Virus record (IMG/VR): IMGVR_UViG_3300033816_000847
Location: 1-20,713 of that record
Length of the DNA stretch: 20,713 nt
DNA from: a virus
Reading direction: 5' to 3' (one strand)
Below, piece after piece: positions 2,778 to 20,654 of this stretch (position 1 is its first letter; every line of letters begins with the position of its first letter). Made by a program: the position numbers and the translations under genes. Under the pieces are notes generated by a model. That model searched no databases and was not told where the DNA came from. It was given only the letters and a program-made list of their open reading frames with translations.

Positions 2778-4623
2778 GTTTGATGTTTTTTATTACGGCT
2801 CTAAGCCCGATAAATTTGAATTTGAGAAATATGCAAGTAGTTTAGAGGATGCTGCGGAAAAAAGTAGAACTCGATATTACTGGTATATTTATGGCGGTAA
2901 CGATTACACTAATTTTGATTTTAGTTGGCGTCCTGCTCCTTGGGAAGCCCATCAAACGCATTGTTTTGGTACACAATGGCAACGTTCCGGAGGTGCTTAC
3001 TTTGCTAATAAAGATACCGTGCAAAATAAAGAATGGCATTTTAGAACAGAACAAAAAGTCACACGCTGTGTTGAGAAAGCAAAATGGATAGTTCCTGCAA
3101 ATATAGACGACAGTAAATTTGATTACAGTTGGCATCCAGACGAATTAGAAGAAGATTATGAATACCATTTTCCCACATTGTGGCAACGGGACGGAGGCCC
3201 TGTATATCCAGGTACTGCTGGCATCAAATATGTAAATGCACAACACATACGTAATGGTGCTACACGAATCTTTTATATGGATTTCTTAAACGACGGAAGT
3301 GCAGAACAATTTGCCAGAATACAACAACAACACCCTGACGCAAAAAGTACCAGGTATGTTGATAGCCATTTAAACGTGTTCAAGCGTATTGCAAATTTAG
3401 CCACGACAGAATTTGTTTGGATTACGAGTAGCTTTTGCGATTACTCAAAATTTGATTTTACTTGGCACCCTGCTCCCGAGCAACGAGAAATGATACATGT
3501 GTTTCCTACATCTTGTAACAAATGGTATCCTCAAAAAAGAGGCGATACTTTTTATGTTCATGTGCCGTCATTGCGAACACAATTGTATGAATTAGAATTA
3601 TTAGATTGGTTTAATGTGATTCATTACTGCACAGATCAAATTGTTTCAATTGATGTACCAATAATAGAATACCGGCAAGATAGTTTAGTTCCGACTGTAC
3701 AAGAGTACAAATTTAATTTTCCATACGCTATTTTTAAATTAGATACGCTTCCAACTGATCCAGTATTTACTCCTCCGTGCATGTGGCACCCTAAGGATCG
3801 TATTGCCGAAGCGTTAAATATATCAGGTAGTACAAGTGTAATACCAAGAGAAGCTCAAGCGCATATTAAAACACAATTGTATGATTATCCATACGTTTTA
3901 CGACGTAAAGAAAATGCATATACAGATAAAGAATTAGATATTGTTTATATAAGTAACGGTGAACCTGATGCTGAACGTTGGTATGATCATCTTTTGGTAA
4001 CCATGAACCATAAACATTCTACACAACGTTTAAAAAGAGTACAGAATGTAAACGGACGAACGGCTGCATATCATGCAGCCGCCTCGGCAAGTACCACGGA
4101 CTGGTTTTTCGCTGTATTTGCAAAATTAGAAGTGTTGGGCAGTTTTGACTTTGGTTGGCAACCTGATTATTGGCAAGAACCTAAACATTATATATTCCAT
4201 AGTCGTAATTGCTTAAACGGACTCGAATACGGGCATATGGGTGTTATTGCTTATAATAAAAGACTGGTGTTGGAAACTTTAGAATCCGGATTAGATTTTA
4301 CACTTAGTCAAAAACACACAGTAATACCTGAGCTCAGTGCTATTGCCTATTTTAATGCCGATCCCTGGATGACCTGGCGCACAGCATTCAGAGAAGTTTT
4401 AAAATTAAAATTGTTCATGGAAACAAGTCCTACCATTGAAACAGAACATAGATTAGACACTTGGTTAACCGTAGCCAATGGAGATAACGCAGAGTGGTGT
4501 TTACGTGGAGCGAAAGACGCTATTAATTATTACAATGAAGTAAATGGTAACAATAATAAACTAATGTTAAGTTTTGATTGGCCTTGGTTGTCTCAAAGAT
4601 TTAAGAATCTATATAATGTTTGA
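2776..4623 (+). CDS. Large protein with four FDxxWxP modules, possible multi-domain glycosyltransferase
   Basis: This 615-residue protein carries a repeated module. FDFSWRP (residues 47-53), FDYSWHP (115-121), FDFTWHP (226-232) and FDFGWQP (457-463) are each followed about 10 residues later by an aromatic/His-Phe patch (HCFGTQWQ, YHFPTLWQ, HVFPTSCN, YIFHSRN). Copies 3 and 4 are preceded by matching blocks: a hydrophobic strand with an acidic residue (RIFYMDFLNDG; LDIVYISNGEPD), then an Arg/Val segment, then A.L..T.F.W or AAAS.STTDWFF. That layout resembles the start of a GT-A (GT2-like) domain, so repeated or degenerate glycosyltransferase domains are plausible. The C-terminal part (WRTAFREVLKLKL, then a Trp-rich end) matches no family I can name. 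The ATG overlaps the start codon of the divergent gene, and the 3' end overlaps the aminotransferase by 23 bases. Confidence 0.62.
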   Translation: MFDVFYYGSKPDKFEFEKYASSLEDAAEKSRTRYYWYIYGGNDYTNFDFSWRPAPWEAHQTHCFGTQWQRSGGAYFANKDTVQNKEWHFRTEQKVTRCVEKAKWIVPANIDDSKFDYSWHPDELEEDYEYHFPTLWQRDGGPVYPGTAGIKYVNAQHIRNGATRIFYMDFLNDGSAEQFARIQQQHPDAKSTRYVDSHLNVFKRIANLATTEFVWITSSFCDYSKFDFTWHPAPEQREMIHVFPTSCNKWYPQKRGDTFYVHVPSLRTQLYELELLDWFNVIHYCTDQIVSIDVPIIEYRQDSLVPTVQEYKFNFPYAIFKLDTLPTDPVFTPPCMWHPKDRIAEALNISGSTSVIPREAQAHIKTQLYDYPYVLRRKENAYTDKELDIVYISNGEPDAERWYDHLLVTMNHKHSTQRLKRVQNVNGRTAAYHAAASASTTDWFFAVFAKLEVLGSFDFGWQPDYWQEPKHYIFHSRNCLNGLEYGHMGVIAYNKRLVLETLESGLDFTLSQKHTVIPELSAIAYFNADPWMTWRTAFREVLKLKLFMETSPTIETEHRLDTWLTVANGDNAEWCLRGAKDAINYYNEVNGNNNKLMLSFDWPWLSQRFKNLYNV

Positions 4624-5701
4624 TGCAATCTACAATGGTTTCTACTTCGCAGTCTGACAATTCTGGATAGATAGGCAAACTAAGACATTCTCTGGTAAAC
4701 GAGGCTGTTTCTGTAAATCTATCTTCTACGTGATCTACATAATGAAAGCCTACTTCTAAATCGTATAAGGCATCTTGATAATGAATTTTAGTTTCAATTC
4801 CGTTTTGAGCCAGTCTTGATTGCAATGCAGTTCTTTCGTGTGTCCTAATTACAAACTTGTGCCAGGCATGTGTAACATGTTCGTTAGGAACAAGTACATC
4901 TACGTATTGATATAGATTGTCTATGTAATAGTTAGCTATCTCTGTTCTACGTCGTTGCCATGCATCAAAATGTTGAAGTTTAATTAACATTTGGGCACAA
5001 TCAGCTTCGTTCATTTTACTATTAGTACCTGGTTGATCGTGTAGAGGTTTTCCGTTGTCTCTTAGAGACATAACTCTTTCGTAAATTTTAAAATCGTCAG
5101 TGAGTATCATGCCTCCCGATCCGTAGTTATTTAAATTCTTTGTTGGATCAAAACTTAATACACTAATGTCACCCATCTTGCCGCTGGGTATGTCTTTGTA
5201 ACAAGCACCAAAGCTTTGAGCAGCATCTTCGATAATAAGTAAACCATCATTAAAAAATTCAGTTTGGATTCTAAATTGATCCCAATCAATGCAATTTCCG
5301 AACAAATTTACATACATTACTGCACCTACACTTCGGTCAAGTTTGTATTGATAAGAACTTAGATCCATTAATCCTTTGTAATCTATATCACAAAATACCG
5401 GTGTGTAACCGTTCATTAATACACTATTGATCGTTGCAGCAAAACTTATGGTAGGAATAAGAACAGAATAAGGAGGTTGATGCATTGCTGCCAATTGAGC
5501 AAATATCAAAGCCTGTGTACCTGAATTGACAGCTACAGCATAAGCTCTATTGCACCGGCGTGCTATTTTTTCTTCAAAATGTTTTGTGTATTCGCCGTCA
5601 AGAACTCGTCCTGTGGAATATATTCTATCAGTAATATCTAAAATTTCTTCTCGTAGATTTTTGTACTGTCTATTGATACCAAAGAACGGAATGGTATTCA
5701 T
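4601..5701 (-). CDS. DegT/DnrJ/EryC1/StrS-family PLP-dependent sugar aminotransferase
   Basis: The 366-residue length suits the family. Motifs in order are NSGTQAL (59-65, phosphate binding), IPTISFAATINSVLMNG (82-98), IIEDAAQSFGA (156-166, with Asp159 facing the PLP pyridine nitrogen), then VLSFDPTKNLNNYGSGG (181-197), in which Lys188 is the expected Schiff-base lysine. The end (HYQDALYDL, then LSLPIYPEL) fits the usual small domain. These enzymes transaminate a keto group on a nucleotide-linked sugar. The ATG overlaps the stop of the SDR gene by 4 bases (5698-5701), so the two are co-translated and may supply and use the same keto-sugar. The 3' end overlaps the convergent 615-residue gene by 23 bases. 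Confidence 0.93.
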   Translation of the reverse strand: MNTIPFFGINRQYKNLREEILDITDRIYSTGRVLDGEYTKHFEEKIARRCNRAYAVAVNSGTQALIFAQLAAMHQPPYSVLIPTISFAATINSVLMNGYTPVFCDIDYKGLMDLSSYQYKLDRSVGAVMYVNLFGNCIDWDQFRIQTEFFNDGLLIIEDAAQSFGACYKDIPSGKMGDISVLSFDPTKNLNNYGSGGMILTDDFKIYERVMSLRDNGKPLHDQPGTNSKMNEADCAQMLIKLQHFDAWQRRRTEIANYYIDNLYQYVDVLVPNEHVTHAWHKFVIRTHERTALQSRLAQNGIETKIHYQDALYDLEVGFHYVDHVEDRFTETASFTRECLSLPIYPELSDCEVETIVDCIKHYIDS

Positions 5702-6666
5702 AACTTATGTTGCCAATATGAAGAAGATTGTAACCAATCAATGTATTTTTCAAATCCTTTTTTGACATCAATTGTCGGGGTAAAATTAAAATCTTGTTGT
5801 GCTCGTTGAATACTTAATCTACCACGACTGGGAAAACTTAAATCTCTATCAGCAATTCTAATTGATCCTTTACCAACAATATTGGTTATTAGTTTTGCAG
5901 CATCTGCTAATGTTATTGTGTCAGGATTACTACGAGTAATATTGTAAATTTTATTAGTAGCATTGGGGCTTAAAATAGCATCCACAATGCCTTGTGCAGT
6001 ATCATGTACATGAGTAAAATCAAGTCTTTCATTGGCACCACGTACAACTAATTCTTGATTTCTGAGTGCAGCTAATGCGAATTTACTCACAACACGATCA
6101 TCAACATCCCATTCGCCGTATACTGCACTTGGACGAATGATAACATATTCTATGTTGTGTCGTTTACAATAATCCTCGACTAATTTTTCTCCCATGTACT
6201 TCATTATACCGTACTGACCTTGTGGTTGACAAACAGCATCTTCAGTAATACCAGATTCAAAGTCGCCATACACCATGCTTGAACTGATATACACAAATCT
6301 GCGAACTTTATATGTGACAGCAGCTTCCAATAAGTTTATCAATCCAGTTACCATGACCTGGCTTGCAGTTACAGGATCTTGTTGTACTACCTTTTGTCTT
6401 GGAAAACTGGCAAGATGTACGATACATTTAATATCAAAAATACCAATATGACTTTTAATTGTTTCTGTATTTCTGATGTCCACAAACAAAGGTGCAAAGC
6501 CTGATCTATTGATTCTACCTTTAATCAAGTAATCAAGTTCATCGTTGGGTATGAAGCCGTAGTCTGTTCTTGAATCTACGCTGTAACAATCTACACCCTT
6601 ATCTCGTAAGAGTTTAATAACATTGTGTCCAATAAAACCAGCTCCGCCGGTGATAAATGTTTTCAT
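5698..6666 (-). CDS. NAD-dependent nucleotide-sugar epimerase/dehydratase (extended SDR)
   Basis: The 322-residue protein begins with the Rossmann NAD-binding motif GGAGFIGHN (7-15). It has the active-site serines in YISSSMVYG (126-134) and the catalytic YGIMK (Tyr152, Lys156). IRPSAVYGEWD and LDFTHVHDTAQGIVDAI are the usual substrate-side segments of extended SDRs. Such enzymes make 4-keto or epimerised NDP-sugars; the exact reaction cannot be read. It is joined by 4-base ATGA overlaps to the aminotransferase downstream and to the 75-residue gene upstream. A dehydratase or epimerase next to a DegT aminotransferase is the usual pairing for an amino-sugar. Further glycan or DNA decoration is inference. 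Confidence 0.92.
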   Translation of the reverse strand: MKTFITGGAGFIGHNVIKLLRDKGVDCYSVDSRTDYGFIPNDELDYLIKGRINRSGFAPLFVDIRNTETIKSHIGIFDIKCIVHLASFPRQKVVQQDPVTASQVMVTGLINLLEAAVTYKVRRFVYISSSMVYGDFESGITEDAVCQPQGQYGIMKYMGEKLVEDYCKRHNIEYVIIRPSAVYGEWDVDDRVVSKFALAALRNQELVVRGANERLDFTHVHDTAQGIVDAILSPNATNKIYNITRSNPDTITLADAAKLITNIVGKGSIRIADRDLSFPSRGRLSIQRAQQDFNFTPTIDVKKGFEKYIDWLQSSSYWQHKL

Positions 6667-6890
6667 TTATACTTTAAGGTAAAATAGGTTGCGGCTTCGG
6701 GTGTAAGATCTCCATACACAATGACCTTATAACCATAGTTGTATGGATCCACAGATACCTTGTATTTTGGATCTCTGCAATGTTGCATGATCCACCTACC
6801 CTGTTCAGAGTTTTGCCAATCACAAAGTGGTGTGGCAGCGTATATTTCAGGATCTTCAACATCACCTAAGTTGAACTCATGGAAAATCAT
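6663..6890 (-). CDS. Small conserved-looking phage protein, function unknown
   Basis: This 75-residue acidic protein has no membrane segment and matches no family I can name. Visible features are an acidic start (FNLGDVEDPEIYAATPL), a WQNSEQGRWIMQHC segment, and an end alternating aromatic and hydrophobic residues (YNYGYKVIVYGDLTPEA), which suggests a small alpha/beta fold. It is in frame with its operon: its ATG overlaps the radical SAM stop (6887-6890) and its TGA overlaps the SDR start (6663-6666). This 4-base coupling on both sides is the reason I prefer it to the overlapping 63-residue frame at 6674-6865. From memory, similar short proteins occur in marine T4-like phages. Confidence 0.75.
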   Translation of the reverse strand: MIFHEFNLGDVEDPEIYAATPLCDWQNSEQGRWIMQHCRDPKYKVSVDPYNYGYKVIVYGDLTPEAATYFTLKYK

Positions 6891-8401
6891 AAGTTATACA
6901 AGTGTCTTGCTTCGGCTAATTCGGGTATATAATCTATTAGATTTGATTTTCTTGAAATATCAAGTTTATCATTGATACTGTAAAATTTTTCTAACATCAC
7001 CGGATCACATTTGTAATTGGGATTAGAGTAGTAATCAAGTAAAAGATCAACCATTGATTTTATTGACCTACCATTCATGTAATATATTTTGGTTTTTTGA
7101 CATTGTATCATTGACTGCACTACAAGATCAGGGCGTGGGTGATTATACGGCATGAATATATTATCAAATCCACCGGCTACCTGTACTAATAGACCGCTCC
7201 CTAAATATTCTTGATCAAAAAATTCAAAAACCTCGTGTATTCTTGTAATACTGTACATAGAAAATACAGTTTGTAATGCTATTTTGTGTCCTCTATCTCT
7301 AAGCATACGTCCATTTTGGACAATTGTATCAAAATCTGATTTCCATCTAATGTAGTCATTTACTTTACCATAACCATCGTAACTAAATGAAAAACAAACA
7401 TCAGTAAAATTATCCAATAGGCTAATTAATTTTTTTGAAAAAAACATACCATTTGTGCCAATGTTTAATTCGAATGATGTCTTACCTTGTGCTATACACT
7501 TTTGTAAAAAAGAATAAAATTCTGGCATTATTGTTGGCTCTCCGCCGCCTACATAAATTCTCTCCAACGTATCAAAATTTATAATATCAAAAGAAGTATT
7601 TCTGTAATTTCCTAACTTTTCTGTAACTAAAGGTATGTTAATCTTTTTCCATTCTTTTTCTATAAGTGTGCTATGAAAATCGTCGCATGTTCTGCACATT
7701 ATATTACAAGTTGAACTTGGTCTAATTTCATAATAAACTGGATTAGTAATTTTAAAAAAATCATCTACTGAATTTAGGCCTAAGCGTTGAGTCCATTCCA
7801 GTGTTTCAAATTGTCGCGTACTTTCCTGTCCTTCATTTTCTCTATCGTAGCAGTCATGACATCTTTCTGGCATTTGTATTCCCTGTGCCATGTTGTTTCT
7901 TATTTCTATATATTTTTTATTTGTTTGCCATTCAGACGTGTGGCCAATTTTATCAATAGGAACAAAGTTTTTTGGGCAAATTGTAGTATCCTGCCAGTTG
8001 TCAATTAAAGCAAGAAAAGGATAAAAACAAAAACTTTTGTTATGCGTTAAAAATTTTTTCCATTGTAAATAACTTTGTACATTTTTATTTTCTTTAAATG
8101 TAACATTGGTTTTATTATTTTCTAAGTCTATAAAAAATCGCACTGTAGTAACAAAAGTTTTATAATGTGGGTAACTTTTAATGTTTTGATCGGCCAAAAT
8201 TATACGATCAAAATTATTAGAAACCTTAATTAGATCACCAGGGTGGATGTCTACTACACTCGTGTGATAAATGCCGTCATCAATTGTGTCAGGTAATGGC
8301 ATTGCTAATAGGCCATTTTTTTCATACTTTAAGTTTTTTGCTAAAATACTTGCACGTAAGTCTGTATCTCTGGTTTCGTTTCCGATAAGTAATATTTTCA
8401 T
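6887..8401 (-). CDS. Radical SAM enzyme with an N-terminal cysteine-rich (twitch-type) region
   Basis: The 504-residue protein has the radical SAM [4Fe-4S] motif CNIMCRTC (Cys232, Cys236, Cys239), preceded by YYEIRPSST. It is followed by YVGGGEPT, the GGE motif that binds the SAM amino group, and by LNIGTNGMFF. Before the core are FCFYPF (Cys125), ICPKNF (Cys142) and MPERCHDCYDRENEGQESTR (Cys181, Cys184). This layout matches the radical SAM proteins described as carrying an N-terminal twitch domain, which could hold an auxiliary cluster. Residues 1-110 may be a separate module. The substrate is unknown; choices include a sugar, a nucleotide or a peptide. Its ATG overlaps the ThyA stop (8398-8401) and its stop overlaps the next small gene, so it sits between nucleotide and sugar genes. 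Confidence 0.88.
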   Translation of the reverse strand: MKILLIGNETRDTDLRASILAKNLKYEKNGLLAMPLPDTIDDGIYHTSVVDIHPGDLIKVSNNFDRIILADQNIKSYPHYKTFVTTVRFFIDLENNKTNVTFKENKNVQSYLQWKKFLTHNKSFCFYPFLALIDNWQDTTICPKNFVPIDKIGHTSEWQTNKKYIEIRNNMAQGIQMPERCHDCYDRENEGQESTRQFETLEWTQRLGLNSVDDFFKITNPVYYEIRPSSTCNIMCRTCDDFHSTLIEKEWKKINIPLVTEKLGNYRNTSFDIINFDTLERIYVGGGEPTIMPEFYSFLQKCIAQGKTSFELNIGTNGMFFSKKLISLLDNFTDVCFSFSYDGYGKVNDYIRWKSDFDTIVQNGRMLRDRGHKIALQTVFSMYSITRIHEVFEFFDQEYLGSGLLVQVAGGFDNIFMPYNHPRPDLVVQSMIQCQKTKIYYMNGRSIKSMVDLLLDYYSNPNYKCDPVMLEKFYSINDKLDISRKSNLIDYIPELAEARHLYNL

Positions 8402-12879: not shown

Positions 12880-13049
12880 CGGGCCATCCTTTCCTTTCTA
12901 CAGGCTTCCTTCATTGCATTGGTATAGTCAGGACTGATTTCTGCTATACTACAATCAATAGTGCGCTCTTTAACAGGATAAGTTGCAAAAGCTACAACTA
13001 CACCAATCGCAATAGCAATAGCAACTAAAATAAATTCTTTGGTTATCAC
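12876..13049 (-). CDS. 57-residue single-span membrane protein with GTG start
   Basis: This short gene fills what would otherwise be a 166-base gap. It begins with GTG at 13047-13049, overlapping the upstream TGA as GTGA, and ends with a TGA overlapping the next ATG as ATGA. The protein starts MITKEFILVAIAIAIGVVVA, a single strongly hydrophobic segment of about 17 residues after a short charged start. It continues with KERTIDCSIAEISPDY and ends KEACRKERMAR. The two cysteines (32 and 50) lie in the soluble tail around a C.IAEISPDY....CRKER pattern that I recall from small membrane proteins of marine phages. If the short N-terminus is inside the cell, the tail faces the periplasm and the cysteines could pair. 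Confidence 0.78.
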   Translation of the reverse strand: MITKEFILVAIAIAIGVVVAFATYPVKERTIDCSIAEISPDYTNAMKEACRKERMAR

Positions 13050-13312
13050 TTAATATCATCCTTCTTTAGAATGTCAAACACTTGTTCGTCGTGCTTCTTA
13101 AAATCGGCCCAGGTATTTTTTGCACCCCACCATAAGAACATCAACATGGCACCTACAACTGCTCCTATAGCTATGGTCCAAAATGTATCGCGGGTAGGAC
13201 CTTCGCCGGCTGTAAGTCCTGCAAAAAAACAAAATGATGTTGTAAAAAGAACTAACTCAGGCCAACCGCACTTGCTCGCAAACCATTTTAAAAAACGCCA
13301 TGTTCGTTTCAT
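13046..13312 (-). CDS. Small two-span membrane protein
   Basis: The frame is open from 13357, but the start at 13312 is better: AAAGGA lies 6 bases upstream and the ATG overlaps the VWA-gene stop by one base (TAATG). The protein is then 88 residues. A basic start (KRTWRFLKWFASKCGW) precedes a hydrophobic segment PELVLFTTSFCFFAGLTAG, a polar loop, and a second segment FWTIAIGAVVGAMLMFLWW. A charged tail follows (KKHDEQVFDILKKDDIK). It is likely an inner-membrane protein with both ends in the cytoplasm. Its stop overlaps the GTG of another small membrane protein, so the two are produced together and may interact. Confidence 0.8.
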   Translation of the reverse strand: MKRTWRFLKWFASKCGWPELVLFTTSFCFFAGLTAGEGPTRDTFWTIAIGAVVGAMLMFLWWGAKNTWADFKKHDEQVFDILKKDDIK

Positions 13313-14559
13313 TATCGTCCTTTCGCAGCTTCTTCGTAGTGTGCCCAAATACCCCACGGTGGTTCACATCCAGGGTTGCCTTTGATGATCCAAACTGTTT
13401 CGCAGTATTGTTCATCGCCCCATGAATCATACGGCATGCCGTCAGTAAACATGATGAATTTTTTAGGTTCAATGTTTTCTTGTTTCATGAATTCCCAATT
13501 GACTTCAAAGTCTGTACCTCCGCCACCTTGGGGTTCGTAAGTCATAATGTCATCTATATTGTCTGAAGTATAAGTCTTTACATTGTACACTTCGGTATCA
13601 AAGCACCACAGTGTAATCTTGTACTCGTCGAACGCCTCCATGATGCCTTTAATCTCGCCCAAGAATGCCTTGCTATCTTCTTCACTAATGGATCCGGATT
13701 GATCCATGGCAATACAGATGTCAATCATGTCTCCGGGCTTGAGTCCAGGCATGATAGCATCCATATGCCAACCTCTACGACTTGGTCGAGCCCAAGTGTA
13801 GTCATTTTTAATTACGGCTGTAATCTGTTGTTGCAGCAGTTCCTTCCAACCAATAACTGGTTCAGTGATGTCTTTGAGCAGACGCTTAACACCCGAAGGC
13901 AAATTGCCCGCACCCGCCGCCTGTGCAGCACTAATCACTGCTCCTTTGATTTCATCGCGGATAGCCTGTGCTTCTTCCTTGCTTAGTTTAGGCTTACCCG
14001 AACCATCTTCGTTATCACCGTCACCATCTTCTTCAAGATGGTCGTCGAGGATCATTTTCTCCAATTGACTAATGTCTATCTTGTCTGAATTCTCATATAG
14101 GTAATTATAAACTTCTTCGTAGCTCCAACCTTTAAATTTATTATCAAACAAGATTGGTACCACACTGATTTTTTCACCAATACGTTGTTCGACCAAGTCT
14201 TGATTAACGCAGTAGTCGGCAGCAATATTACTCAGTCGTGGCATACGGTCGCCACGCCGTCCCATGTGATCATAAACCGCATGCAAGATCTCGTGCCCCA
14301 CAAGAAATTCGAGCTGTTTTAGCGGCATCTTGTTTACAAACTCACTATTATAATAGAACTTACGCCCGTCAGTTGCAGCGGTTCCGCACCATTCATCTGC
14401 ATTAGTTAGCGTCATACGGGTAGCTAACTGTCCAAAAAACGGCGCCTTTAGTAGCAAGCCAATACGAGCAGTAGTCAGTTTCTCACGAGCCGCAGCATCA
14501 GTGCGCGGATCGGTTACAGTTACAACTTTTTCTTTGTCAATTACAGTAGATGCTGTCAT
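13312..14559 (-). CDS. Metallopeptidase-like / VWA-domain protein (DUF2201-type), partner of MoxR ATPase
   Basis: The 415-residue protein has two domains. The N-terminal one has a zinc-peptidase motif in FLVGHEILHAVYDHMGR (HEILH, residues 89-93, Glu90 as possible base) followed by NIAADYCVNQDLVEQRIG. A charged linker (about 171-190, rich in Asp, Glu and Gly) leads to a VWA-like domain with MIDAS residues: AMDQSGSIS (Asp286, Ser288, Ser290), then GGGGTDF and IMFTDGMPYDSW. This is the DUF2201 architecture (peptidase-like plus VWA), often encoded with a MoxR ATPase, and one is encoded at 14989-16092. The pair may remodel or insert cofactors into a target complex, by analogy with MoxR/VWA systems. 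AAGGAG precedes the ATG, and a near-consensus sigma-70 promoter lies at 14587-14615. Confidence 0.9.
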   Translation of the reverse strand: MTASTVIDKEKVVTVTDPRTDAAAREKLTTARIGLLLKAPFFGQLATRMTLTNADEWCGTAATDGRKFYYNSEFVNKMPLKQLEFLVGHEILHAVYDHMGRRGDRMPRLSNIAADYCVNQDLVEQRIGEKISVVPILFDNKFKGWSYEEVYNYLYENSDKIDISQLEKMILDDHLEEDGDGDNEDGSGKPKLSKEEAQAIRDEIKGAVISAAQAAGAGNLPSGVKRLLKDITEPVIGWKELLQQQITAVIKNDYTWARPSRRGWHMDAIMPGLKPGDMIDICIAMDQSGSISEEDSKAFLGEIKGIMEAFDEYKITLWCFDTEVYNVKTYTSDNIDDIMTYEPQGGGGTDFEVNWEFMKQENIEPKKFIMFTDGMPYDSWGDEQYCETVWIIKGNPGCEPPWGIWAHYEEAAKGR

Positions 14560-14586
14560 GTGTTATGCTCCTTAACTATATGTATT

Positions 14587-14615
14587 ATTATAGCGTGTTC
14601 TGGATTTATAGTCAA
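14587..14615 (-). promoter_or_regulatory. Sigma-70-type promoter for the VWA gene
   Basis: Read on the reverse strand: TTGACT at 14615-14610, a 17-base spacer, and TATAAT at 14592-14587. This is 5/6 and 6/6 to consensus at the ideal spacing. The start would fall about 7 bases further, giving a leader of roughly 20 bases with AAGGAG before the ATG at 14559. The spacer begins TATAAATC when read with the T of the -35 box, one base off the T4 late-promoter consensus TATAAATA, so late use is also conceivable. The -35 overlaps the stop codon of the upstream gene. Confidence 0.8.
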
Positions 14616-14932
14616 ACGATCCATTTAAGAGTGACGTTACTAAGGACCGTGTCATCTTTAACATATATGTATTGATGGTTTGGATAACCTTTATCCACAT
14701 GCCAACACCATGGCGGATTGAATGGTTCATATCCTTTACAACTGATTGCGGTGCTACCATATAAATCTCGTTCGCAACTTACACCGTACTGCTCAATCAT
14801 CCAAGATCTTAGCACATGAAAATTTCTATAATGAGATCTGTTAAGATCAAAATTGACTTGTATACGCAAACGATAACGCCACAGATAATGCCCTGTATGT
14901 CTCTTGTCTAATTGTTCAACAAAATATTTCAT
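14612..14932 (-). CDS. Small aromatic-rich phage protein, function unknown
   Basis: I start this gene at the ATG at 14932 (106 residues). The open frame also extends to a GTG at 14977, but that would run through the hairpin and T-run that look like the terminator of the MoxR gene. The protein has KRHTGHYLWRYRLRIQVNF, then FHVLRSWMIEQYGV, then YEPFNPPWCWHVDKGY and YIYVKDDTVLSNVTLKWIV, rich in Tyr and Trp. No family is recognised. No Shine-Dalgarno sequence is seen before the ATG (it is preceded by the T-run), so expression may be weak or depend on read-through. Confidence 0.68.
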   Translation of the reverse strand: MKYFVEQLDKRHTGHYLWRYRLRIQVNFDLNRSHYRNFHVLRSWMIEQYGVSCERDLYGSTAISCKGYEPFNPPWCWHVDKGYPNHQYIYVKDDTVLSNVTLKWIV

Positions 14933-14935
14933 AAT

Positions 14936-14969
14936 AAAAAAAGGGGTCTTACGGACCAAGTCCTGCCCC
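14936..14969 (-). terminator. Probable intrinsic terminator after the MoxR gene
   Basis: On the reverse strand, 20 bases after the MoxR stop, an imperfect hairpin (outer GGGG/CCCC at 14966-14969 and 14943-14946, inner GGAC/GTCC or alternatively GGTC/GACC) is followed at once by seven T (14942-14936). The two inner pairings are mutually exclusive, which might allow partial read-through. Confidence 0.6.
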
Positions 14970-14988
14970 TGCCTCACACGCGACTCAA

Positions 14989-16092
14989 TTATTTAGACGA
15001 ACCGGCTGCTGCAAGAACATACTTGCCGTAACGCTGATGGAACTCATCGAAGCTTGGCATCTTGCCTGGAACCATTGGCAGATTGTATGTAGTCAACGCA
15101 ACTCGCGCACCCATGACAGTGACTTCGGTAGTAAAGTTATCCATCATGAACCGCAGGAAGTTGTCGGCCATCTTATGGAACTCGGCGATCTTGTCTTTAT
15201 TCTTGGTGTGAAAGTCTTGTAACTCGTAGCACATACTGGTGGTCAGCGAATACATAGCCGACACTTCTTTGGTCTTGAGTTCTTTAACCTTGCCTGCAAG
15301 AATGTCTTCGGGCTTTGGCAGCGAACCAGCCACTTTGCGATGAGCCATAAACTTGTGTGCAATACCCTCGCCTACGCAGCCTGCAACAAGATCCGTTAGT
15401 TCTGACGCGGGCATGTCTGTGTCTTTGCAAAAGTCACTTGCAAAGGTCCACGAACGCGGTGTAGCAAACGAACGACTGTTACTACGCGGATCAAAGTCAA
15501 ACATGTCACTCTTAGCGAACGACAGATAACCAACAACATCCGCATGGATTTTGTTCTTAACAGCCCATGTCTGCCAGGATTCAAAGTCTGGACGGACCTC
15601 CAAGTGTACAAAGCGATTGGCAAGTGGACTTGGCATACGATATGTAACGCCTTTGTCCGAATCTCTATTACCCGCTGCAACCATTACGACATTGTCTGGC
15701 AATCGATACTTGCCAATACGACGATTCAAAATTAGTTGATATGCTGCGGCTTGCACTGCGGGTGCAGCCGAATTCATCTCATCCAGGAGTAATACTACAA
15801 TCGGATACTGTGCCGCAAGTTCTTCATCAGGCAAGTCAATTGGCGGTGCCCAATCCATAAGACCCTTGTCTTTGTTATAGAATGGAATGCCGCGCATGTC
15901 TGTAGGTTCCATCTGCGAAAGACGCAGGTCAATCATGTACCCGCCGAGCTCGCGACAAATGTCAGCGATTACCTCGCTTTTACCAACACCTGGTGGTCCC
16001 CAAAGGAACATAGGTCGTTTGTGTTTAAACGACCTTAGGATACGACTACGAGCCTCTTCGGGCGTAACCGTACGGGTTTCTGTAACTGCCAT
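14989..16092 (-). CDS. MoxR-type AAA+ ATPase
   Basis: The 367-residue protein has Walker A GPPGVGKS (32-39), Walker B VVLLLDEMNSA (99-109), sensor 1 VAAGNRD (138-144) and a conserved arginine in SPLANRF (Arg160), in the order found in MoxR/AAA_5 ATPases. NSAAPAVQAAAYQLILNRRI is the usual helix after Walker B in this group. MoxR ATPases work as hexamers with a VWA-domain partner, and such a partner is encoded at 13312-14559. AAGGAG (16100-16105) lies 7 bases before the ATG. A TATAAT at 16124-16129 and a hairpin just upstream suggest an independent transcript. In T4-like marine phages MoxR genes are common, with no proven role. Confidence 0.93.
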   Translation of the reverse strand: MAVTETRTVTPEEARSRILRSFKHKRPMFLWGPPGVGKSEVIADICRELGGYMIDLRLSQMEPTDMRGIPFYNKDKGLMDWAPPIDLPDEELAAQYPIVVLLLDEMNSAAPAVQAAAYQLILNRRIGKYRLPDNVVMVAAGNRDSDKGVTYRMPSPLANRFVHLEVRPDFESWQTWAVKNKIHADVVGYLSFAKSDMFDFDPRSNSRSFATPRSWTFASDFCKDTDMPASELTDLVAGCVGEGIAHKFMAHRKVAGSLPKPEDILAGKVKELKTKEVSAMYSLTTSMCYELQDFHTKNKDKIAEFHKMADNFLRFMMDNFTTEVTVMGARVALTTYNLPMVPGKMPSFDEFHQRYGKYVLAAAGSSK

Positions 16093-16144: not shown

Positions 16145-16174
16145 AGCGTCTGTCGCTTTTACACAACAGACGCT
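16145..16174 (-). terminator. Strong hairpin between two reverse genes, likely terminator
   Basis: A perfect 9-base stem, AGCGTCTGT (16145-16153) with ACAGACGCT (16166-16174), has a 12-base loop and starts 8 bases after the stop of the 131-residue gene. The reverse-strand tail is only TATT, so this is not a classical T-rich terminator. It could also stabilise the 3' end of the transcript or act on the MoxR promoter, whose -35 region it covers. Confidence 0.55.
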
Positions 16175-19297: not shown

Positions 19298-19668
19298 ATG
19301 TATTCTGCTAACAAAATTGCAACCACAAATCCAATAAGTAGATAAGTGATAGCGTGAATCAATTGATCCACACCAATCCAGAACCAAAAAGCATCTGCAT
19401 CAGTGGATAATCTAACTGTTACTCTACGATGTGCTAAATCTACTGTATAGTGAATTACAGCATCAAATACTGCTAACATAACGCAGGCTTGCAACCCCAA
19501 AAAATGCATAAGGATCACATAAGTTAAAGCACCATGTAGACCAGCATGTTGCAATCCGCCCAGTCTACCAAAGTGTCCTTTGTCCTTGAGCATTCTATCG
19601 CTTTGCCAGCAAAAGTCTGCCAAGAAATGTTTTACAAACAACAAGGCCAATATGAGCCATGTTGTCAT
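19294..19668 (-). CDS. DUF3307-like membrane protein
   Basis: The 124-residue protein has several hydrophobic segments and the residue pattern of DUF3307 proteins: FVKHFLADFCWQSDRMLKDK (11-30; H.laDf..Q...m...K), then a histidine pair in LQHAGLHGALTYVIL, then FDAVIHYTVDLAHRR and WIGVDQLIHAITYLLIGF. About four membrane segments are likely (1-18, 42-58, 60-78, 96-120). The conserved His and Asp residues lie in or beside membrane spans, suggesting a functional site. The family has no proven activity. It is coupled to the exonuclease upstream and to the fibre-motif gene downstream by ATGA overlaps. Confidence 0.83.
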   Translation of the reverse strand: MTTWLILALLFVKHFLADFCWQSDRMLKDKGHFGRLGGLQHAGLHGALTYVILMHFLGLQACVMLAVFDAVIHYTVDLAHRRVTVRLSTDADAFWFWIGVDQLIHAITYLLIGFVVAILLAEYI

Positions 19669-20654
19669 CCGGGATATTCCGCGCCCAATAGTTCAGCGTA
19701 GTTTGAACTATGTTCACTAAGTCTGTTTAGTTCATATTTGCCGCAGAACTTCAAGAATTGAGCACCTACCATTGGTCTACTTTGCTTGACTGCACCTACT
19801 GCTATAGTCTCTGCGATTTTTGCTTTAATCTCTGCAGGTTGTGCAGAGAGATCAACAAGCACTCTATTACGTTCGTAGTCATCTAACACTCGATGTTCCA
19901 CACCGTTATGGTCTGTCCATCGCTGAAGCATAAGGTTATTCCAAGCATATCCTTTTTTATGTTGGTCAGCAAAAGCTTCAGTGAGACCAATTTTGTTCTT
20001 GCTACCCTTGGTCCTAACACCCGGATAAGCGGAAAAGATATTATCTGTTGGATCGCCGCGCATACACTTCTCAAACAGGATCCACTGCGGATCAGGGATA
20101 CGCTTGGGTTCCTTAGTCTTTTTATCAATTACTGGCTTACCTTTCTTGTCAAGAATGCCCTCTAACGTGTGGAGTTCGTCGGCAACACCGTTATATTGCT
20201 GGACGTTCGGCGCAAGAAGTTGATAGAAGTCAGTGTCTGAGGATATGATAACATGGTCGTCATTGGGGTGGGCTTGTATAAAGCCGGCAATAAGATCATC
20301 TGCTTCAAGTTCCGGGTGTTGAAGAACTGTGCAATTAGTCTTTTCTGCGAGGAACGTTTTAAGGTTATCAAACGCTTCCCAAAATAGTTTGTCCTCTTCC
20401 TGCTCTGATTCAGTGAGGGCCGCACGAGCGACTGCACGATTCTTTTTGTACGGCTCGTAATAATCTTTTCGCCATGACCGTCCTTCCAAACAAAATACCA
20501 CGTGATCGGCTTTCTGATCCCGCCAAGCCTTATTAACCGAACCAAGGGTAACATGGATAGCGAATCCTAATTTATCCCAGGTGTCCGATTGACGGTGAGC
20601 TGAATGACGAGCACGAAAGAATGTGTTTGCGGTGTCTACAATTAGATATCTCAT
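19665..20654 (-). CDS. 5'-3' exonuclease / RNase H (FEN family, T4 Rnh type)
   Basis: The 329-residue protein carries the metal-binding acidic residues of the FEN family in order: LIVDTANTFF (Asp7), the DNA-binding GRSWRKDYYEPYKKNR (58-73, close to the WRRDFAYYYKKNR of T4 RNase H), ELEADDLIAGF (Glu117, Asp119, Asp120), VIISSDTDFYQLL (Asp140, Asp142) and CMRGDPTDNI (Asp201, Asp204). T4 RNase H is 305 residues. The enzyme removes RNA primers and flaps from lagging-strand fragments at the phage fork. It opens a seven-gene coupled operon. Two overlapping promoters lie directly upstream, and no Shine-Dalgarno sequence precedes the ATG at 20654. Confidence 0.95.
   Translation of the reverse strand: MRYLIVDTANTFFRARHSAHRQSDTWDKLGFAIHVTLGSVNKAWRDQKADHVVFCLEGRSWRKDYYEPYKKNRAVARAALTESEQEEDKLFWEAFDNLKTFLAEKTNCTVLQHPELEADDLIAGFIQAHPNDDHVIISSDTDFYQLLAPNVQQYNGVADELHTLEGILDKKGKPVIDKKTKEPKRIPDPQWILFEKCMRGDPTDNIFSAYPGVRTKGSKNKIGLTEAFADQHKKGYAWNNLMLQRWTDHNGVEHRVLDDYERNRVLVDLSAQPAEIKAKIAETIAVGAVKQSRPMVGAQFLKFCGKYELNRLSEHSSNYAELLGAEYPG

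Follow-up and report, generated by a model that had tools for sequence, protein, structure and literature searches.

A phage MoxR-type ATPase and its metallopeptidase-like VWA partner: probably one remodelling machine, likely with separate transcription of its two genes

What does the pair of a MoxR-type AAA+ ATPase and a VWA-domain protein do for a phage, and what would be gained by transcribing its two genes apart? The question is raised by the virus record IMGVR_UViG_3300033816_000847 from IMG/VR, whose 20,713 bases were analysed as a whole and are called the window here. On its minus strand there come, after the MoxR gene, a hairpin ending in a run of T, an open reading frame (ORF) of 106 amino acids, a promoter, the VWA gene and small overlapping ORFs. 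A preliminary description of this DNA had recognised the known MoxR-VWA pairing, the three elements that split it, and an intact HEILH motif with full MIDAS residues in the VWA protein; the elements and residues are all present in the sequence, and the pairing was borne out by the Pfam and PHROGs domains and by the relatives. The two proteins probably constitute one NorQD/CbbQO-like remodelling machine, in which a zinc-peptidase-like domain would take part in target binding. This reading draws on sequence, a structural model and analogy, and the lines that lead to it are domain content, motif conservation, co-occurrence, the similarity of the fold to NorQ and a conserved terminator and promoter. 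Phages as different as N4-like podoviruses, V5-like myoviruses, jumbo phages and a cyanophage retain the pair. In the literature searched, to the extent that the texts were accessible, no target was named and no experimental study of the phage pair or tested function was found; statements cited below likewise refer to the accessible parts of the papers.

Close relatives were collected from IMG/VR in two scans, which gave 160 loci on contigs of up to 355 kb. Duplicate VWA, MoxR or upstream sequences were counted once in all counts of motifs, transmembrane (TM) ORFs, promoters, terminators, inverted repeats and neighbouring ORFs. The MoxR protein of the window contains Walker A, Walker B and sensor-1, and Walker A, the DE of Walker B and the sensor-1 Asn are kept in all 94 distinct full-length MoxR proteins. 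It matched the Pfam AAA model with 36.4 bits (cut-off 21.2) and phrog_1297 with an E-value of 9.6e-101. AAA_3, which we take to be the Pfam model typical of MoxR, was a near miss by 1.3 bits (25.7 against a cut-off of 27) and was not treated as defining. The AlphaFold2 model (predicted local distance difference test, pLDDT, 85; predicted template modelling score, pTM, 0.75) was compared with PDB structures by Foldseek and VIA-align. Its best match was NorQ (9qh7_E; Z 15.1, root-mean-square deviation (rmsd) 3.5 over 223 residues), and NorQ chains topped both searches. The fold neighbours were NorQ, alone or with the NorD VWA domain, and CbbQ, with dynein (Z 14.6) and Clp AAA+ modules trailing NorQ by only 1-2 Z. 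No TM segment was predicted in MoxR. Membership of a defence system was rejected, PADLOC having returned only sub-domain AAA matches for MoxR and none for VWA.

The partner protein carries HEILH at residues 89-93 and the MIDAS residues D286-S288-S290, T349 and D373. Two Pfam models matched it above their cut-offs, PF13203 (DUF2201_N, putative metallopeptidase) with 136.1 bits and PF09967 (DUF2201, VWA-like) with 57.9 bits. The label of phrog_1314 and of many RefSeq phage records would make this protein an HNH endonuclease, an identity that is extremely improbable and was rejected: the domain content, metallopeptidase plus VWA-like with no HNH family in Pfam at E-values up to 0.1, contradicts it, and a misleading label on many VWA records is thereby corrected. 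In the AlphaFold2 model (pLDDT 78, pTM 0.56) the C-terminal 140 residues (275-413) adopt a VWA fold, as seen from the match to 6snk_B (Z 12.4, rmsd 2.8 over 138 residues), and the Foldseek matches include MDN1-MIDAS and NorQD. The VIA-align matches cover mainly the same residues; they did not place the N-terminal fold and gave no evidence of a new one. A PDB sequence search yielded no credible relative of the VWA protein, and no TM segment, PADLOC match or NCBIfam family was obtained for it.

HExxH and DxSGS are kept in all 99 distinct full-length VWA proteins. Across 18 diverse phage VWA proteins H89, H93, H98, D115, N119, D286, S288, S290, T349 and D373 are invariant and E90 is nearly but not fully so; H98 or D115 is a candidate for the third zinc ligand. 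The metal-site and MIDAS residues are the invariant part. Homologues without HExxH or MIDAS, which the preliminary description had named as evidence that would speak against it, turned up only marginally among 21 named phages: DxSxS is kept in all of them and HExxH in 19, the catalytic Glu being absent in Atu_ph07 and in the V5 record. The V5 record (DQ832317.1, 3015-4367, minus strand) reads HGVGH where its relative slur16 has HEVGH. Its C-terminal reading frame also departs from that of slur16, so there may be lesions or errors in this record. From Atu_ph07 and V5 it had been suspected that the catalytic Glu is commonly lost; this idea was largely withdrawn, with HExxH present in slur16 and in a V5-like contig of IMG/VR.

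The two genes go together. In 50,697 phage records searched by tblastn (E-value 1e-5), VWA relatives were found in 747 and MoxR relatives in 823, all below 60 % identity; distinct pairs from IMG/VR reach 98 % for MoxR and 96 % for VWA. MoxR was present in 160 of the 160 IMG/VR loci and VWA in 152, and the eight loci without VWA all end within 456 bp of MoxR. VWA was located downstream of MoxR on the same strand in each of the 152 informative loci. In 105 distinct pairs the VWA start lies 16 to 3661 bp beyond the MoxR stop, and in 35 of them at most 150 bp. Both genes were also found in 21 of 22 named phage regions (phiTY18 has MoxR and no VWA match within 5 kb, and the VWA match of phiYS40 is weak, E-value 1e-5). 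No ORF lies between them in ten of these 21 phages (N4, Atu_ph07, 121Q, S-TIM5, Phosso, XaC1, Kashira, D468, 2L372D and phiYS40), one to nine ORFs in seven (PA5oct, G, SCTP-2, Vibrio 2.275.O, LIT1, Axy04 and At2), and in four (V5, slur16, 4MG and K54_rec4) the genes are on opposite strands. A split pair is therefore not special, 11 of 21 being split or opposite-stranded. In a mirror-tree comparison of 23 loci the raw correlation was highest for MoxR-VWA (0.94), a comparison that does not discriminate (see below). No bacterial relatives were found by tblastn in two scans of genome contigs with single phage proteins as queries; among 14 control genomes PF13203 is present in Thermotoga maritima and Deinobacterium chartae.

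The manner in which the genes are split in the window and its close relatives is more distinctive, if only modestly so. The hairpin behind MoxR (14943-14969) is followed by seven T (14942-14936) and has a folding energy of -10.2 kcal/mol, calculated on the 40 nt that precede these T; it was not listed by a simple terminator scan because its stem is interrupted. The VWA promoter matches the consensus at 11 of 12 positions. This site alone proves little, since promoter-like sites in the window are no commoner than expected by chance (23 found, 21.5 expected), and the case for it is therefore made by its conservation in relatives. In comparison with random windows, which are partly genic and make both contrasts somewhat generous, a terminator-like hairpin at most 80 nt from the MoxR stop was found in 22 of 26 close relatives and in 34 of 83 distant ones (random 60/2000). 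A promoter with at least 10 of 12 matches was found in the 75 nt preceding VWA in 23 of 25 close relatives and in 23 of 36 that are more distant (random 46/1220), a count restricted to loci in which the VWA match begins near residue 1.

The intervening 106-amino-acid ORF has no family in Pfam, PHROGs or NCBIfam. By tblastn it was present in 17 of 25 distinct pairs with a VWA identity of at least 84 %, in 4 of 8 at 70-84 % and in 12 of 72 below 70 %. Near relatives without it exist, such as locus L002 (MoxR 98 %, VWA 95 % identity). The ORF is optional, and the terminator and promoter are kept with or without it. These data support the view, put forward in the preliminary description, that the two genes stand under separate promoters, and judging from sequence their separate transcription is likely a conserved design in the close group. 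The V5 record has separate annotated sigma-70 promoters before each gene group. A conserved split into two transcription units was not found in the accessible part of the literature searched; the conserved terminator with a separate promoter is a new regulatory detail.

An inverted repeat precedes the MoxR start by 55 nt and occupies the -35 position of a promoter whose -10 is good. With a spacer of exactly 12 it was found in 22 of 25 upstream regions of close relatives, and the loci concerned have no other copy. Repeat and preceding gene occur together in 23 cases and are both missing in 34, with the gene found without the repeat in two; since the repeat tracks that gene, it may be the gene's 3' hairpin or an operator. 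A more far-reaching proposal is that adaptor-peptidase and motor are decoupled: VWA would be made alone, probably early, and would at first bind or clip some target of the host or the phage without the motor. It would become part of a remodelling machine only on the arrival of MoxR, made from a promoter with a poor -35 that overlaps the conserved inverted repeat. This is regarded as unlikely.

Features of the MoxR-VWA locus, with positions in the window and the basis of each assignment
Feature	Position	Strand	Basis
MoxR-type AAA+ ATPase, 367 amino acids, N4 gp24 family, phrog_1297	14989..16092	minus	Pfam, PHROGs, AlphaFold2 model
DUF2201 zinc-metallopeptidase-like + VWA/MIDAS protein, 415 amino acids, N4 gp25 family, phrog_1314	13312..14559	minus	Pfam, VWA fold
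Optional ORF between MoxR and VWA, 106 amino acids	14612..14932	minus	tblastn; no Shine-Dalgarno sequence before ATG
Terminator-like hairpin + T run 3' of MoxR	14936..14969	minus	folding, conservation
Near-consensus sigma-70-type promoter of VWA, TTGACT-17-TATAAT	14587..14615	minus	motif scan, conservation
Inverted repeat GTCTGT-N12-ACAGAC upstream of MoxR, at 3' end of preceding gene	16148..16171	minus	repeat scan in relatives
Small ORF P4, 88 amino acids, one predicted TM segment, start overlaps VWA stop	13046..13312	minus	not conserved with the pair
Small ORF P5, 57 amino acids, GTG start, one predicted TM segment	12876..13049	minus	not conserved with the pair
Lys/Ala-rich ORF upstream of MoxR, 131 amino acids	16182..16577	minus	ORF list, relatives

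In the preferred reading of one machine, MoxR would most likely form an ATP-driven hexameric ring and the VWA protein would act as its adaptor, binding the target through the C-terminal MIDAS site. The N-terminal zincin-like domain, which has HExxH and, in H98 and D115, two candidates for additional ligands, may bind the target as well and perhaps clip it, and ATP hydrolysis would remodel the target protein complex. According to a proposal for NorQD, the target is bound at the MIDAS site and a VWA finger reaches into the pore of the ring (PMC9976466); by analogy, the phage pair is presumed to work on the same principle. The terminator would end the MoxR transcript and the strong host-type promoter would drive VWA; with separate transcription the adaptor to motor ratio or the timing could be set independently, and the two promoters offer a handle for the timing.

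As to the class of target, virion components seem quite possible and are placed just ahead of replication or nucleotide enzymes, which are slightly less probable, and of host proteins, which are rather improbable. The corresponding explanation, in which the pair is a virion-assembly chaperone with a processing peptidase that folds, remodels or cleaves head or tail proteins, is considered possible, though less likely than not. Such a role was proposed for jumbo phages by Iyer et al. (2021), with the Acidianus two-tailed virus as a precedent (PMC7824862). Annotated structural genes precede the pair in 121Q and XaC1, and S-TIM5 has a gene for a virion structural protein one small ORF downstream of it. 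A virion mass spectrometry list of phAPEC6 includes gp265c, an 'ATPase' of 49.52 kDa (PMC7247149), and this mass fits MoxR of the close relative 121Q (49.51 kDa), as do the masses of neighbours (thymidylate synthase 35.51 in both phages; gp566 25.03 against 25.02). The PA5oct MoxR record carries the note ESI-MS/MS (electrospray ionisation tandem mass spectrometry). However, no structural family was matched among the window ORFs submitted to Pfam or PHROGs; the neighbours with Pfam matches include DHFR, thymidylate synthase, a 5'-3' exonuclease, deoxycytidylate deaminase, a radical SAM protein and two sugar-nucleotide-type enzymes.

Several further points weigh against the picture of one machine or against its action on virions. 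The N4 homologues gp24 and gp25 are middle, not late, transcripts (PMC4193335), which weakens a role in virion assembly. VWA is unmarked in the PA5oct record and absent from the accessible portions of the phAPEC6 virion list, and the detection of MoxR may be carry-over, because thymidylate synthase (phAPEC6) and RNase H (PA5oct) are also marked by mass spectrometry. In the Atu_ph07 VWA protein the catalytic Glu is replaced by Gln (HQILH). A NorD-like finger was not identified in the single-chain VWA model. In the mirror tree the partial correlation of MoxR-VWA (0.361) was exceeded by two other pairs and is not discriminating.

The enzymes encoded nearby could themselves be the clients. The pair would then serve the maturation or metal loading of enzymes of phage replication or nucleotide metabolism, much as NorQD or CoxDE act on metalloenzymes, an explanation that we consider doubtful. 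DHFR, thymidylate synthase and the 5'-3' exonuclease in the window are in its favour, as are a dCTP deaminase gene adjoining the pair in N4 and Axy04 and, in 121Q, S-TIM5, Vibrio 2.275.O and XaC1, an annotated thymidylate synthase gene no more than about 5 kb downstream; N4 gp30 has been called thymidylate synthase (PMC2784036). The association is not general, however: thymidylate synthase is near the pair in only 5 of 13 annotated regions (raw count), and none is annotated near it in Atu_ph07, PA5oct, V5, G, Phosso, SCTP-2, LIT1 and phiYS40.

P4 and P5 overlap VWA and each other by start and stop codons, head to tail, and have one predicted TM segment each. The preliminary description had seen VWA leading two small membrane proteins, which is correct for the window, and had suggested from it an action on the host envelope. 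Both were searched for by tblastn in distinct pairs followed by at least 1 kb of DNA; here and in the next count, loci with too little downstream sequence were excluded. At a VWA identity of at least 84 % P4 was found in 10 of 19 pairs, at 70-84 % in 1 of 4, and below 70 % in 1 of 62; the corresponding numbers for P5 were 10/19, 2/4 and 1/62. Any small TM ORF within 900 nt after VWA was found in 11 of 86 distinct loci and in 42 of 621 control windows, with an enrichment among near relatives (6/18, control 11/125) and none beyond them (3/64, control 29/467). The survey suggested in that description thus showed no constant co-occurrence, the membrane proteins accompanying the pair in about half of its closest relatives. 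Since P4 and P5 are common only in the nearest relatives, the envelope inference is not supported, and a membrane complex as a general feature of the pair was rejected. The small membrane proteins are incidental to the pair.

These counts also bear on a host-directed device, along the lines of the preliminary description, in which a protein or membrane complex of the host is bound by the VWA-peptidase and then cleaved or disabled. The overlap of the TM ORFs with VWA in the window would fit it, the strong host-type VWA promoter would permit early expression, and RavA-ViaA of E. coli acts at respiratory membrane complexes (PMC3893208). Nevertheless, relatives have the pair without these TM ORFs as regular companions, neither MoxR nor VWA has a predicted TM segment of its own, and PADLOC gave no match to VWA. 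Such a device is judged improbable.

Some observations concern the surroundings of the pair. The 131-amino-acid protein encoded upstream of MoxR has a long Lys/Ala-rich stretch that gives the impression of histone H1 tails; it is present in 61 of 160 loci and had no confident family match in Pfam, PHROGs or NCBIfam. Consecutive genes for a DegT-type aminotransferase, an NAD-dependent epimerase and a radical SAM protein at 4601-8401 are possibly a sugar or surface-modification cassette. A gene of the 5'-3' exonuclease, RNase H or DNA-polymerase-I-like type, encoding about 330-355 amino acids, precedes MoxR by a few kb in the window (19665-20654), PA5oct, Atu_ph07, Phosso and SCTP-2, and this synteny groups the five.

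The MoxR-VWA pairing is ordinary for phages and already described: for jumbo phages, Iyer et al. (2021, PMC7824862) reported the pair with its fused domains and proposed that it acts as a chaperone, and N4 gp24 and gp25 are listed as core genes of N4-like phages (PMC4193335). The N4 pair is homologous to that of the window, in the same order and strand and with HExxH and MIDAS present, but its genes are directly adjacent, its VWA identity is about 25 % and, as mentioned, both are middle genes. PA5oct has the closest named MoxR (50 % identity) and one of the closest VWA proteins (45 %), with the genes separated by ORFs, as in the window, and an RNase H gene upstream; in contrast to the window, there are four ORFs between them, including a putative homing endonuclease. 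Atu_ph07 (ASV44729.1/ASV44728.2) shares the same two-protein architecture, 92-93 % of both proteins being homologous at 37-38 % identity, whereas its genes are adjacent and its VWA has the Gln noted above, the window having an intact HExxH and genes separated by a terminator and a promoter. Outside phages, the pair resembles NorQ/NorD, CbbQ/CbbO and RavA/ViaA, with an AAA+ fold nearest to NorQ and CbbQ and a VWA domain with MIDAS. The partner in the window presumably carries its N-terminal zincin-like domain in place of the N-terminal regions of NorD, CbbO and ViaA.

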